Positions 1 to 29,413 of a DNA stretch of 37,177 nt are shown here, one piece after another; the stretch's first letter is position 1, and each line of letters opens with the position of its first letter. The notes under the pieces were generated by a model. That model ran no database searches. It was given only the letters and a program-made list of their open reading frames with translations, and was not told the origin of the DNA. The stretch is from NCBI GenBank assembly GCA_025354565.1, contig JANXMQ010000131.1:1-37177 (forward strand), read 5' to 3'. Source of the stretch: Akkermansiaceae bacterium (GTDB lineage Bacteria; Verrucomicrobiota; Verrucomicrobiia; Verrucomicrobiales; Akkermansiaceae). A program made the position numbers and the translations under genes.

Positions 1-167
1 GCCTTGCGCTCCGGCAGCCCAAATTCGAGTCCCTCGCCACTCCATCCTTGACCCAATATTCATGATCTCATATCAATCCGCCGCGCCCCGCACCATAGCT
101 TAGTTTAGCCACTGAGTGGTCGGATTTTCGGGGCCGCCTCAAGGTTCCATTCCAAATCTTCATACAA

Positions 168-731
168 TTACTTTGAAACCTTCTCAAGAACCTTGATAGC
201 ATCTTCTGAAGTTTCATCAACTTTGGGCCGGACGAACATCTCGTCCATATCCGCATAGGCGCGGGCAAATTCAATTTTTGCGGAAATATACGGTTCGGTG
301 GGTGCCAGCAGTCTCACTCGCATGAGAAGACTTTTTAGTTCGGAACCAATTTCAATTTCCCTGGCTGTCAGCTTCGCCTTCCGCTCGACCTGATATTTTA
401 GACCTCCAAGTGAATTCCTAATATTCCCCGTCAGATTTGCAAACTCAGGATTTCTCCCTTTAAAATCCCGAAAAGCCTCCATGAATTCTTCGTCATTTTT
501 TGATACAGTCATTTTCACGACATCATTTGAAGCTTCCTTATCGTATGAAGCGAAATAAGGAGTAGCCCCAAGCTTCATTTCTGGAACCGTTGTGGTGCCC
601 TGAGTAACGATTTGTTCCGACCGACCATCTTTCGGTTCTGCTTGTTTGGTTTTTTCGCAAGAGTTTAAAACGATTGCCGAAAAAACAATACATGTAATTA
701 TGAGGCTTTTAAGTTCTGATTTATTGTTCAT
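168..731 (-). CDS. Predicted lipoprotein of unknown function
   Basis: I do not recognise this 187-residue protein. Residues 1-24 form a signal peptide (basic start, then a hydrophobic run) ending in a lipobox-like LNSC, so Cys25 is the probable lipidated residue and the mature protein should sit on the periplasmic face of a membrane. The rest is charged and predicted helical, with no cysteine or catalytic motif that I can see. The gene is clearly more AT-rich than the chromosomal genes from 1395 onward and lies beside an inverted-repeat element and hairpins, which suggests horizontal acquisition. No partner gene is visible. The reading frame, signal peptide and lipobox are seen directly; function is unknown. 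Confidence 0.7.
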   Translation of the reverse strand: MNNKSELKSLIITCIVFSAIVLNSCEKTKQAEPKDGRSEQIVTQGTTTVPEMKLGATPYFASYDKEASNDVVKMTVSKNDEEFMEAFRDFKGRNPEFANLTGNIRNSLGGLKYQVERKAKLTAREIEIGSELKSLLMRVRLLAPTEPYISAKIEFARAYADMDEMFVRPKVDETSEDAIKVLEKVSK

Positions 732-900: not shown

Positions 901-1003
901 GAAGTTTACATTTTCCATACGCTTCGCCGAGATTTAATTCATCACCAGCTTGGAGCTTTGAGCGAGGGTGATGCAGGAGCCCACCATGTTGAGTTGGTTT
1001 TGG

Positions 1004-1058
1004 ATGCGTGAAGTCACGCATGGCTTGCTAGCCAAGCGAGGGCGGGCTGGCTAGCAAG
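1004..1058. repeat. Two adjacent hairpins
   Basis: Positions 1004-1021 are a perfect palindrome (atgcgtga, 2-base spacer, tcacgcat). Two bases later comes an 11-bp inverted repeat, cttgctagcca at 1024-1034 and tggctagcaag at 1048-1058, with a G-rich 13-base loop. No T-run follows either stem, so they are not standard terminators. They lie between the inverted-repeat element and the phased array in a stretch without genes, and could be part of a mobile or regulatory element. The rest of the gene-free stretch 732-1394 is described under its neighbours. Confidence 0.5.
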
Positions 1059-1148
1059 AAAGTAAAAAACTTAACAGGTAGAATTCGGCTTTTCTCGCAT
1101 TGCGTTGTAAATGATTAGCTTACGGAGTTTTCTATTGCTAGAAACAGA

Positions 1149-1394
1149 TTGTGCGGAGTGTTTGCCCGGAGGTGTAAAGCGGTTTCCCACCTGCGGGGCG
1201 GGCTGCTTGATTGTGCGGGGCGGTTTCCCGACGGTGAGCACCGGTTGCTTGGGGGTAAGAACGCGTTTCTTGCCTGGGGGAGGCGTTTCTTGACTGCGCG
1301 GGTGGATTTCCCGGATGTAAATGACCGTTTCCGCAGTGCGTGGGAGAATTTCTCCGACGTGAAAATGTGTTGCGCGGGTGTGGATGCGGGTTGC
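1149..1394. repeat. 21-bp-phased TTKC/TGYG array, 12 units
   Basis: A TTTC or TTGC box begins at 1162, 1183, 1224, 1245, 1266, 1286, 1307, 1328, 1349, 1370 and 1391, with a degenerate CTGC at 1203. Spacings are 21, 20, 21, 21, 21, 20, 21, 21, 21, 21 and 21 bp. Within each unit a second box, mostly TGTG or TGCG, lies at positions 10-13; the G at position 11 is present in every complete unit. Units often end in GG. The TGTG half-box also occurs at 1150-1153 one unit before the first TTKC. The remaining bases differ from unit to unit. Two units are 20 bp, so no reading frame runs through the array. It ends one base before the dapB stop codon. Confidence 0.75.
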
Positions 1395-2129
1395 TCAAAC
1401 AAGCCCCAGCACATCCTGCATGTCATAAAGGCCGACCGGCTGGTTTTCCAACCAACAGGCGGCCCGCACGGCACCGGCTGCGAAGGTGAGCCGGGAGGAG
1501 GCTTTGTGAGTGAGTTCGACGCGTTCGCCATCGGCCGCGAAGAGGACGGTGTGATCGCCCACCACATCGCCACCACGGAGCGTGTGCATGCCGATTTCGC
1601 GCGGCTTGCGCGGACCGATGTTGCCGAGTCGGCCATGCGCCACATCGTGCTGATAGGAGGTGCCGGTTTCTTCGTTGAGAATTTCCAACAGGCGGCGGGC
1701 GGTGCCGGATGGAGCGTCGATCTTGTGTTTGTGGTGCATCTCGGTGACCTCGATATCGAAGCGGTCCTGAGTGAGAATGCGGGCGGCGTGACGGGTGAGC
1801 CAGAAGAGTGTGTTCACGCCGACGGAGTAATTTGCAGCGTAAACGATGCGAATGGATTTGGCGGCGGCGTAAATGATTTCCCGTTCCGCATCGGTGTGAC
1901 CGGTGGTGCCGATGACGAGGTTGGTGCCGTGTTTCAAGGCTGCCGCGATCAGCGTGGAGGTGAAGGAATGAATGGTGAAGTCGATGGCGCAGGTGGCTTG
2001 GGAAATCGCAGTGTCCAGATCCTCGCCCGCATCATGGGTGGCGGCGATAGGGATGCTCGCCTGAGTGGCGGCGGCGATGACGGCCTGGCCCATACGGCCG
2101 GATTTTCCAGTAATGAGGAGTGATGGCAT
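1395..2129 (-). CDS. dapB: 4-hydroxy-tetrahydrodipicolinate reductase
   Basis: DapB reduces 4-hydroxy-tetrahydrodipicolinate to tetrahydrodipicolinate with NAD(P)H in the diaminopimelate/lysine pathway, supplying peptidoglycan and lysine precursors in the cytoplasm. The sequence shows the N-terminal Rossmann motif GKSGRMG (residues 8-14), the cofactor-binding GTTG (74-77) and the catalytic block MHHKHKIDAPSGTA (131-144) with the proton-donor His pair and substrate-binding Lys. At 244 residues it is slightly short of the usual 250-270. I chose the ATG at 2129 because the protein begins MPSLLITG there; the open frame further upstream is read-through of a 7-bp tandem repeat. No Shine-Dalgarno site precedes this start. 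The stop codon abuts the phased array at 1149-1394. Confidence 0.95.
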   Translation of the reverse strand: MPSLLITGKSGRMGQAVIAAATQASIPIAATHDAGEDLDTAISQATCAIDFTIHSFTSTLIAAALKHGTNLVIGTTGHTDAEREIIYAAAKSIRIVYAANYSVGVNTLFWLTRHAARILTQDRFDIEVTEMHHKHKIDAPSGTARRLLEILNEETGTSYQHDVAHGRLGNIGPRKPREIGMHTLRGGDVVGDHTVLFAADGERVELTHKASSRLTFAAGAVRAACWLENQPVGLYDMQDVLGLV

Positions 2130-2334: not shown

Positions 2335-4914
2335 TTAGTCCTCCCAGATCATGTGTTTGAGTTGAAGTTGGCCGGCGCGGGTGGCGGCTTCTTCTGCGCG
2401 CGGGCCTTTGAAGGAAGCGATTTTCTTGGCGACGGTGATCGCAACGGGCCAGCGTTGGGCTTTTTCCAACAGGGCGAGGGCGCGGAAACCACAGCGCTCG
2501 AAGTATTCCCACTCGACGGGAGGGGTCGTGGTTTCGAGGACGGAATGGAATGCCTGGAAGGCTTGTTTTTCGCGTTTCTTCGTAGGGTCCTTTTCGTCCG
2601 GTAGTTGCTCCAGCGTCGTGCCACGGAGGTATTGCAGACGATTGAGTAGGGCAGGTTGGTCCTTGGCGCGAACTAAAAGTCTATCATAAACCGCCAGTGC
2701 TTCGACTAAAGAGGCGGGATTGCTGCTGCCTTGGGCATAAAGCGCCTCGCCTAACAGTAATCCGGCAGGCAACTGAAGCGGGTCGTTTTCCGGTAGTTTT
2801 CGGGTCCAACCGGTGAGAAAGGCGGAGGCTTCCGGGAGGCGATACATGTCGATGAGATGGCCGGCCTTTTCCAAGGTGGCGATGGCGGCGAGTGGTCCGT
2901 TAGAGGCGATGGCTTTGTCGAAGAGGATCAGTGCTTCCTCTTTGGACTGCGGGGTGCCGCCAAGTGCTGCGGCGCGGGCCGCAAGGAGCCAAGCGGCTTG
3001 GGCTCGGGCGGGATCGGTATCGGTTACGGCGAGTTTTTCCAGCACCAGGCGGGCTGGGTTGTAGCTGCCGGTTTGGAACAGCGTCAACCCGAGCGTGAGG
3101 GCGGCTTCCGCACTAACAGGGTCGCCCGGATAGGTGGTGAGGATGGTCTGGGCGGTGGCGATGGCAGTCGCTGAGTCTTTTGCTAGAACGGCCACGCGGA
3201 GTCTGGCTAGGGCGATGCGTGGGGCGGGGAGCGAGCCGGATTTTTCTGCCGATGCGGTTAGAATGTCCAACTGGGCACGGACGAAGGTGAGGTCTGGAGT
3301 GGGGCCGCTGAGCGCCGCTTCCACCGCAGCGAGGCGGGCTTCGGCGGCGCGGTGATGCTCGGGGAAATGGGCGAGAAAGGCTTCGATCAAGGTTCTGGCG
3401 GCAGCGGGTGGCGTGGTGGAAAGGGCACGCTCCAGCTCAAGATCCGCCTCCAGCGCCGGGTCCGGTGGCAAGGGTGTTTGTTGGATGAGCTGAGTGCCGT
3501 TAGGTCCGCCGCTGTGCAAGCGGGCGATGGCGGCCTGGAGTTTTGCCGTTCTGGCGGCGGGCGCACTCAGGGTTTTTGCGGCCTCGTCGAAGAGCTGGAT
3601 CGCGGCTTTTGGATCGCCTTGCAGGTAGGTCACGCGGGCTTCGAGATAGGCGGCTTCACCCTTGAGGAGCGGGGATTTCGTGACCTCGCGAAGGCTTTCC
3701 AACATCGCTAGCGCTGGGTCGATGGAGCCATCGTCCAGCAGCCATCTAGCGGACTGATAGAGTGCGCGGCTGCTCAGAAAGTGGCCGGGATATTCGAAGC
3801 AGATGCGGTTGAACAGGCGAGCGGATTCGGCCTTGGCGTCCGGGGTGGCGAGGCGGTGGAGGCCGATGGCACGGGCATAGAGCGAGAATACTAGCAAATC
3901 CGTTTGCCCGTCTGGAGCGGGATAGGTCGGCCATGCGGAAGCGGCGGAATCATTGATGGCGATCGGGCCGATGGCGGGCAGCACCGAGGGCGTGATCCAC
4001 TGGGCGAGGCGCTCAAGGATGGGATCGGTGGCGGTGGGTTTTTCCGGCAGCCAATTGAGAATCCGCTTGAAGATGGCTTCCAGCACCGGCGAGTCCGGGT
4101 GTTCTTGGAGAAATGCGAGTAGCGAAGTCGTCGCCGTGTCAGTGTCGCCCTGAGCTTGGATGGCATCCGCGAGTCCGATGGCGGCGGCATGGTGGCGGGT
4201 GAGGGTTTGGCCCTGCGGATGGTTGACGAGGTCTTGGAAAGCAGCTTCCGCGTCCGCCGCTTTTCCCTCTTGAAGTAGCAATTGCGCTCTGAGAAATACC
4301 GCCAACGGGTGGTCTGTTAGGGCAATCTTGTCATTGGCCGGCAGGGCGAGACGGGCATCCACAGGGCGATGCAGGTCGAGCAGGATTTCCACCTGATAGA
4401 GCTGGATCTTCACCACCGTCGCCGCGTCGGATGTCGGGATGAGGTGGGTCAGGGCATCAAGCGCGGCCTCGGGTTGGTCGAGCGTGAGGAGGAGGCTGGC
4501 CTTGGTGAATCCCGCTTCGCGGCGATGCGTGGCGGTGGGATCGGTCAGCAGGCTGGAAAAAATTTCGATCGCCTCCTTCAGGCGGCCCTTACCCGCGAGA
4601 GCCTGCGCTTTCCAGAACGGCGTTTCGGGGTTTTTCGCGACGAACGACTGACCGAGTAAATCGAGTGCATCGGTGAAATTTCCTGCCCGCACCAGTGAGT
4701 CGGCAAGGCGGATGGCGAGTTGGGATTTCTGCTCCGGGGTGAGCGTGGGGCTGGCCAGGCATTGTCTGAAATGCATTTCCGCGACCTCCCAGAGTCCGGC
4801 GGCCAGCGCGTCATCGCCTTTTTGCTCAAGCTGTGAAAGTGGTTCCACCCCCTGCGCAAGCAGGACTGGCTGCCATGCCAGCAGGATCAGCGGGTAGAGA
4901 GGCCAAAATTTCAT
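2335..4914 (-). CDS. Large secreted tetratricopeptide-repeat protein
   Basis: This 859-residue protein starts with a signal peptide (MKFWPLYPLILLAWQPVLLA), so it is exported. The remainder is an almost continuous solenoid of Ala/Leu-rich helical pairs typical of TPR repeats: phrases such as ALDLLGQSFV, AIEIFSSLLTD, AEAAFQDLVNHP and ALAMLESLREV recur about every 34-40 residues from residue 30 to the C-terminus. No enzymatic domain is visible. TPR proteins of this size usually scaffold envelope complexes or bind secreted partners, which is inference here. It lies 66 bp downstream of upp and 205 bp upstream of dapB on the same strand, so co-transcription is possible, but its role does not follow from these neighbours. 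Confidence 0.85.
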   Translation of the reverse strand: MKFWPLYPLILLAWQPVLLAQGVEPLSQLEQKGDDALAAGLWEVAEMHFRQCLASPTLTPEQKSQLAIRLADSLVRAGNFTDALDLLGQSFVAKNPETPFWKAQALAGKGRLKEAIEIFSSLLTDPTATHRREAGFTKASLLLTLDQPEAALDALTHLIPTSDAATVVKIQLYQVEILLDLHRPVDARLALPANDKIALTDHPLAVFLRAQLLLQEGKAADAEAAFQDLVNHPQGQTLTRHHAAAIGLADAIQAQGDTDTATTSLLAFLQEHPDSPVLEAIFKRILNWLPEKPTATDPILERLAQWITPSVLPAIGPIAINDSAASAWPTYPAPDGQTDLLVFSLYARAIGLHRLATPDAKAESARLFNRICFEYPGHFLSSRALYQSARWLLDDGSIDPALAMLESLREVTKSPLLKGEAAYLEARVTYLQGDPKAAIQLFDEAAKTLSAPAARTAKLQAAIARLHSGGPNGTQLIQQTPLPPDPALEADLELERALSTTPPAAARTLIEAFLAHFPEHHRAAEARLAAVEAALSGPTPDLTFVRAQLDILTASAEKSGSLPAPRIALARLRVAVLAKDSATAIATAQTILTTYPGDPVSAEAALTLGLTLFQTGSYNPARLVLEKLAVTDTDPARAQAAWLLAARAAALGGTPQSKEEALILFDKAIASNGPLAAIATLEKAGHLIDMYRLPEASAFLTGWTRKLPENDPLQLPAGLLLGEALYAQGSSNPASLVEALAVYDRLLVRAKDQPALLNRLQYLRGTTLEQLPDEKDPTKKREKQAFQAFHSVLETTTPPVEWEYFERCGFRALALLEKAQRWPVAITVAKKIASFKGPRAEEAATRAGQLQLKHMIWED

Positions 4915-29385: not shown

Positions 29386-29413
29386 AATCTCAAATTTCAA
29401 ATCTCAAATTTAA
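29386..29413 (+). repeat. Degenerate heptad repeat in the rplC leader
   Basis: The heptads atctcaa, atttcaa, atctcaa, atttaaa run from 29387, ending about 7 bases before the rplC ATG. aatctcaaattt occurs twice, at 29386 and 29400, 14 bases apart. Confidence 0.65.

Follow-up and report, generated by a model that had tools for sequence, protein, structure and literature searches.

A phased 21-bp repeat array beside dapB in an Akkermansiaceae genome that looks like a degraded member of a two-part type of chromosomal element of related bacteria

Described tandem-repeat systems and the array beside dapB

Iteron arrays of plasmid origins consist of short tandem units located by the gene of the protein that binds them, and CRISPR arrays carry a repeat of about 23 bp or more together with cas genes. 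At partition loci, each ParR dimer is described as binding a single parC iteron, and the partition genes are repressed by the super-helical assembly that results (PMC5016525). Type III toxin-antitoxin loci (ToxIN, CptIN, and TenpIN) place a repeat upstream of one gene, with a repeat sequence that is specific to each protein cluster (PMC8860590).

The array described here lies in a window of 37,177 nucleotides (the whole stretch of DNA that was analyzed), which is contig C130 of the Akkermansiaceae genome G000, an assembly of 5.1 Mb in 257 contigs. It looks like the degraded form of an element with two parts that is found repeatedly in the chromosomes of related bacteria, with the array as a putative docking strip for protein. 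The element would combine a DNA half of about 12 units of 21 bp with one gene of a family named LQN after the residues at the start of its protein, which is about 225 amino acids long.

By analogy, the closest working model appears to be an iteron or partition array. Like the arrays of parC/ParR and parS/omega systems (types Ib and II), in which up to about ten short tandem units lie beside the gene of the binder, LQN arrays have the iteron-type layout of tandem units, helical register, and a recurrent adjoining gene. Unlike those systems, LQN loci are chromosomal and scattered, the letters of the 21-bp unit vary by locus, no replication or motor gene was seen to recur in the flanks, and the LQN protein falls by sequence in no known binder family, so that it is on the protein family that membership fails. 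Type III toxin-antitoxin loci share the locus layout and an array sequence specific to the protein type, whereas LQN arrays have no nested fold signal, are built of short unequal units and in some cases lie downstream; LQN also lacks a sequence match to the toxin family, and a strict scan, whose expectation in shuffles was zero as well, returned no terminator. Regular conserved boxes with variable sequence between them recall CRISPR arrays, but the boxes of LQN arrays are about 4 bp long with a period of 21, and no recurrent neighbor family was seen beside LQN. Tandem units in numbers that vary between loci are likewise a property of intergenic minisatellites (VNTRs), from which LQN arrays differ in that the units diverge except for two boxes and the period is nearly fixed across unlike unit sequences. 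Searches of the openly licensed literature turned up no description of such arrays.

The window array and its surroundings

The following features of the window enter the analysis.

1..141, no strand: overlap with contig C171, identical to the last 141 bases of that contig
168..731, minus strand: 187-amino-acid reading frame without known family, in the inserted DNA that separates dapB from the PDZ-protein gene
955..1017, minus strand: relic of the partner gene LQN, a GTG start at 1017 and 21 codons (VTSRIQNQLNMVGSCITLAQS), beyond which the likeness ends
1145..1394, minus strand: array of 11 complete 20- or 21-bp units and partial units at both ends, backed by its score with a sister-array profile
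1183..1202, no strand: first 20-bp unit, frame-breaking
1266..1285, no strand: second 20-bp unit, frame-breaking
1395..2129, minus strand: dapB (Pfam DapB_N and DapB_C), whose stop codon at 1395-1397 abuts the array

Each unit contains two conserved boxes, one helical turn apart. On the minus strand, which also carries dapB and the LQN relic, the unit reads approximately CCCNYNYNCRCANYCRRGAAA; on the plus strand, it consists of a TTKC first box (once CTGC) and a TGYG-like second box at unit positions 10-13. An earlier note on this DNA had placed the first boxes at 1162, 1183, 1203 (as CTGC), 1224, 1245, 1266, 1286, 1307, 1328, 1349, 1370, and 1391, and each was found at its position, with spacings of 20 bp at 1183-1203 and 1266-1286 and of 21 bp everywhere else. 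The array itself, described there as 12 units, was recovered, and its count was revised: 11 units are complete, the unit at 1391 is reduced to TTGC because the bases from 1395 onward belong to dapB, and an extra half unit was recognized by eye at 1145-1161, which keeps its second box (TGTG, 1150-1153) and has lost the first. Columns T2, C4, and G11 are invariant in all 11 complete units, the last of these as the note had stated, and T1 is conserved in 10 of the 11.

The pattern lies far outside chance phasing, which the same note had named as a possible refutation: the three invariant columns compare with at most one in 5,000 within-unit shuffles. The self-match of the array was 0.44 at a lag of 21, 0.43 at a lag of 42, and 0.43 at a lag of 62. 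A profile of four sister arrays, from which the window was left out, gave the window array a score of 101.4, compared with at most 8.4 on 200 shuffles of the array's own bases and at most 18.8 in the rest of the window; this comparison is not fully independent, because the sister arrays had been found with a window-derived profile. Conservation power at 10.5 bp was 2.93, which for a single array corresponds to a p value of 0.04. The other place in the window with a period of 21, at about 15.9-16.2 kb, lies inside a 356-amino-acid frame that by eye is a membrane-fusion protein with coiled-coil heptads.

A role of dapB as the meaningful neighbor was not supported. In dapB loci of relatives that were scanned with the window-array profile, no array like that of the window was found; the gene that recurs beside such arrays is LQN, and only its beginning survives in the window. 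This remnant begins at a distance of about 128 bp from the array, whose strand it shares, and matches the protein of locus L248 at 71% over 21 amino acids (tblastn, E value of 3e-4). At the DNA level, positions 952-1004 are 91% like locus L241, and positions 952-1016 are 78% like L248 and 80% like L250. In all three loci, the similar DNA adjoins an array, and in L248 and L250, a gene of about 225 codons begins with it. With LQN truncated after about 21 codons and a base missing from each of two units, the window copy is probably a relic. A perfect inverted repeat was also seen by eye between the LQN start and the array (CTTGCTAGCCA at 1024-1034 and TGGCTAGCAAG at 1048-1058).

Of the 46 relatives in which the sequence extends far enough, 34 have a homologue of the PDZ-protein gene that starts at most 400 bp after dapB. 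This count covers loci L029-L075 and L077 wherever 600 bp or more lie downstream, and it omits L076 as well as the alphaproteobacterial loci L078-L107. The closest named dapB loci come from metagenome-assembled genomes, mostly labeled Akkermansiaceae, Akkermansia, or Verrucomicrobia. In G000, the PDZ-protein gene sits on contig C171, at the end of which a transposase (HTH_Tnp_1; rve) lies just before the 141-base overlap with the window. About 4 kb, including the array, therefore probably separates dapB from the PDZ-protein gene in this genome, by a join that is likely and not certain because the overlap falls at an insertion sequence. Within the insert, stretches of 736-918 recur elsewhere in G000, on C49 (80%) and C40 (86%), and AATGTCTGTTATTTG-like words of the kind found there also follow dapB in L032; by eye, they represent a repeated mobile-element end. 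Among known RNA families, only a tRNA was found in the window.

Arrays and LQN genes in related genomes

Relatives were searched with a dimer profile made from the window array only (R1) and with a trimer profile made from the window array and those of genomes G196, G166, G148, and G145 (R2). In G000, the window array was the sole R1 match. Within the genus, R1 identified true arrays in the four genomes that subsequently contributed to R2, and R2 led to further arrays in the genus and the order; those of L186 and L241 mix 20- and 21-bp units, while those of L188 and L190 have 21-bp units only. Among the 145 genomes of the family, 16 other than G000 had R1 matches at an E value of at most 0.1, against a chance expectation of about 14. 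Fifteen of these 16 loci were rejected on inspection as not being arrays, and one of the 16, G059:C35, gave an E value of 1e-7 with R2 and shows about four units by eye. The phylum matches of R1 outside G000 (L184 and L185) were not arrays either. Locus L242 (G145:C4) was dropped, its match to the array profile at 3763-4146 being by eye a coding 21-bp repeat (KKPAPAA) of a lysine-rich protein like those of histone H1 type. R2 matches at E values of 0.001 to 0.01 were not counted as arrays. A 21-bp array of other sequence (GATTCGGCTTCCGCAAGGAGT), which lies between two genes at L191 1290-1590 in G147, was left out of the analysis. The suggestion of the earlier note that such arrays might recur in relatives and be tracked by a gene was borne out, the gene being LQN.

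In the order, LQN is represented by 58 genes (60 rows) in 34 of the 386 genomes searched. A wider profile applied to 387 genomes of the phylum found it in five: G000 and two further genomes of the own order, plus two from a different family of the class, of which one gave a weak partial match. Outside the window, G000 carries five LQN matches, fragments among them; those on C97 and C133 adjoin arrays of other sequence. Searches of Pfam, NCBIfam, PADLOC, PHROGs, PDB sequences, plasmids, phages, and viral contigs returned no convincing match to LQN; the best PHROG match, of one member among 27 (7e-5), was to a family without a name. By sequence, LQN contains no ribbon-helix-helix, helix-turn-helix, or other known domain, and no known DNA-binding domain was detected. 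No match of Rep, ParR, TubR, or omega type was found, the Pfam RepB match in 1 of 27 members (E value of 0.085) not being significant. Likewise, none of the 27 members matched a ToxN/AbiQ endoribonuclease in Pfam or PADLOC, and a profile search of PDB sequences gave none. The proteins are mostly acidic, with a pI below 7 in 34 of 37 and a median of 5.5. The idea of LQN as a phage or plasmid gene was rejected after one protein gave no match in 72,556 plasmid and 50,697 phage records; four LQN queries against viral contigs also had no match. At L305 1501-1710, the first 70 LQN residues continue in frame into what by eye is an RHS/YD-repeat protein.

Flanks of 700 bp on either side of the LQN genes (shorter where a contig ended) were scanned for a self-similarity of at least 0.56 at 20-22 or 41-43 bp, a threshold picked after a first look at the data. 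An array with a 21-bp lag was found within 700 bp of 46 of the 58 genes, upstream of 40 and downstream of 6, while 12 had none at this threshold. Controls gave 1 match in 48 dapB flanks (24 of 30 dapB loci; the window's own and five with short flanks were dropped) and 3 in 556 tiles of the own genome; when these four were inspected, three proved to be 7-bp repeats and one had no obvious array. Arrays have 5 to 20 units (median of 12), and the median gap between an upstream array and its LQN gene is 91.5 bp (n = 40). Among the 14 largest clusters of flanking frames (1.5-kb flanks, less at contig ends), those other than LQN overlap LQN or the array, save small low-complexity ones. Analyses of strand and phase start from an assumed strand, the one running towards the gene; this strand fits a leave-one-out family consensus better in 39 of 46 arrays and the other strand in 7, three of which form one subtype with TCGTTTT units. 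The six loci with a downstream array are at odds with a simple operator at the promoter of LQN.

Spacing within the arrays is highly regular, with 466 of 498 spacings equal to 21 bp, 15 equal to 20, 8 equal to 22, and 9 that skip a unit. Within-unit conservation was analyzed inside each of the 42 arrays with at least seven units, without aligning arrays to each other. The 10.5-bp harmonic reached 3.06, compared with 1.06 in shuffles (0 of 2,000 as high), and was the only one raised; 3-base periodicity (harmonic 7) was absent in the same arrays, at 0.92 versus 1.05 in shuffles. The signal held in 22, 16, and 12 representatives at less than 70, 50, and 40% protein identity, and in the last set, power was 2.78 versus 1.06, with 0 of 4,000 shuffles as high. 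Little of it is seen in the sister arrays L186, L188, and L190 (1.15 to 1.39), while L243 reaches 2.38. Together, these data uphold the proposal of the earlier note that selection acts on DNA geometry, with boxes one helical turn apart. Its fixed TTKC/TGYG motif did not hold beyond the window: unit sequences range from GGTACGACCATTTAGGTGCCT to GGAAATCGACTCAGCAACTCT, and the letters vary between loci, tracking the LQN protein type. A weak phased motif is nevertheless shared family-wide (summed information of 4.6 to 5.3 versus at most 2.68 in 40 column-shuffled controls).

Array similarity tracks LQN protein identity across 41 loci (Mantel r of 0.60, p of 0.0005), and in all 13 usable comparisons, seven of them from one genome, the array of a relative in another genome was closer than that of a paralogue in the same genome. 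Array type thus follows LQN type, and we conclude that array and gene travel and change together. Such co-travel is no proof that one binds the other, and co-inheritance alone would be sufficient to make array type follow protein type.

Proposed function and rival explanations

Our leading reading, to which we assign about an even chance, is an iteron-like strip, probably tied to LQN, that would let protein bind cooperatively along one face of the helix. A protein would bind the boxes cooperatively along that face, as at iterons or an operator array, and in the bound state may coat about 250 bp. The likeliest binder would be the LQN product, perhaps as an oligomer, with a putative role in the control of its own gene or in anchoring of the site; the window copy may still serve as a target for products of the remaining LQN genes of G000. 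More tentatively, and with distinctly less than even confidence, we propose that the loci constitute an unnamed two-part system of the Verrucomicrobiales, in which lineages of an orphan family co-evolved with their own phased arrays and the addresses of paralogues are private and distinct. If the two-part reading is true, bacterial chromosomes would carry self-addressed nucleoprotein filaments of a new class, and possibly an unrecognized mode of organizing or marking chromosome sites. Boxes that vary by locus, recur with each helical turn, and change in step with one protein would also provide a natural experiment in protein-DNA recognition. As an unknown family, LQN gains a candidate ligand, and its function is therefore directly testable.

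Readings of the array as a coding or an RNA element were weighed against this docking strip. A unit of 21 bp corresponds to seven codons, and the array could encode a leader protein of variable heptapeptide repeats near LQN; the window copy, with its two 20-bp units and also a truncated LQN, would then be a frameshifted pseudogene. Spacings are exclusively multiples of three in 29 of 46 arrays, at least one forward frame is open through the inner units in 37, and L260, L261, and L263 are among the loci where an open frame runs from a start ahead of the array to a stop beyond it. Against this, 17 arrays have spacings that are not multiples of three, 15 of them next to an LQN frame whose match covers 200 positions or more; nine arrays have no open forward frame; and every phased frame is interrupted by stops in some of the arrays, inner-unit stops occurring in 29, 22, and 22 of the 46 arrays for the three phased forward frames (32, 23, and 23 with edges). 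The C97 array of G000 cannot keep a frame, because spacings of 21 and 22 partly alternate and its best self-match is at 43 bp. The stops and the 20- and 22-bp spacings argue against peptide coding, as does the lack of 3-base periodicity in conservation, and the coding-heptad alternative raised in the earlier note fails for the family; we regard a leader protein as unlikely. A repeat RNA that neutralizes LQN, in the manner of a type III toxin-antitoxin pair, would agree with a tandem array by one gene, usually upstream, whose sequence tracks the protein type. Nested structure, however, did not exceed that of shuffles, with mean z scores of 0.23 and -0.19 on the two strands (46 arrays, 12 shuffles each; pseudoknots are outside the model) and z below -2 in three arrays on each strand, which argues against an RNA with nested folds. 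Units differ strongly within many arrays, six arrays are downstream, and the 10.5-bp rhythm points to double-stranded DNA. A terminator (perfect 6-bp stem with T-rich tail) was found in 0 of 40 array-gene gaps, where the shuffle expectation was also 0.0. An RNA antidote seems improbable. A Rho-utilization site was rejected as well: C exceeds G on the reference strand in 33 of 46 arrays, but six arrays are downstream and were taken on the opposite strand.

Mobility and neutral turnover account for other aspects of the loci. The array could mark the site where a mobile gene cassette recombines or inserts, in keeping with the scattered loci, with two arrays of one genome (L186 and L187) that share an outer flank, and with the window itself, where the array stands in the dapB/PDZ-protein gap, which spans at most 400 bp in 34 of 46 relatives, and a transposase lies in the same insert. 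No recombinase recurs, however, among the clusters of flanking frames (1.5-kb flanks, less at contig ends), and array type tracks LQN type; a cassette site is unlikely in our view, and the recombination or packaging site suggested in the earlier note was not supported. Alternatively, a neutral, aging minisatellite may hitchhike with LQN, as the variable unit number (5 to 20) and the recent homogenization of some arrays would allow, yet unit length stays near 21 while unit sequences diverge, and conservation peaks lie one helical turn apart. Neutral drift predicts neither a fixed length nor helical peaks, which counts against this explanation and makes it very unlikely in our view.

Further repeats and shared segments were noted during inspection. 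The arrays at L186 4784-5142 and L241 1876-2214 come from two species of the genus; about 200 bp of their LQN-distal flank is common to both, even though the remaining genes nearby differ. Just before dapB, the window carries a perfect 7-bp tandem repeat (GATTGAT, 2151-2203), and more 7-bp runs occur at window positions 29386 and 31915, elsewhere in the own genome (L020 and L014), and at L152.
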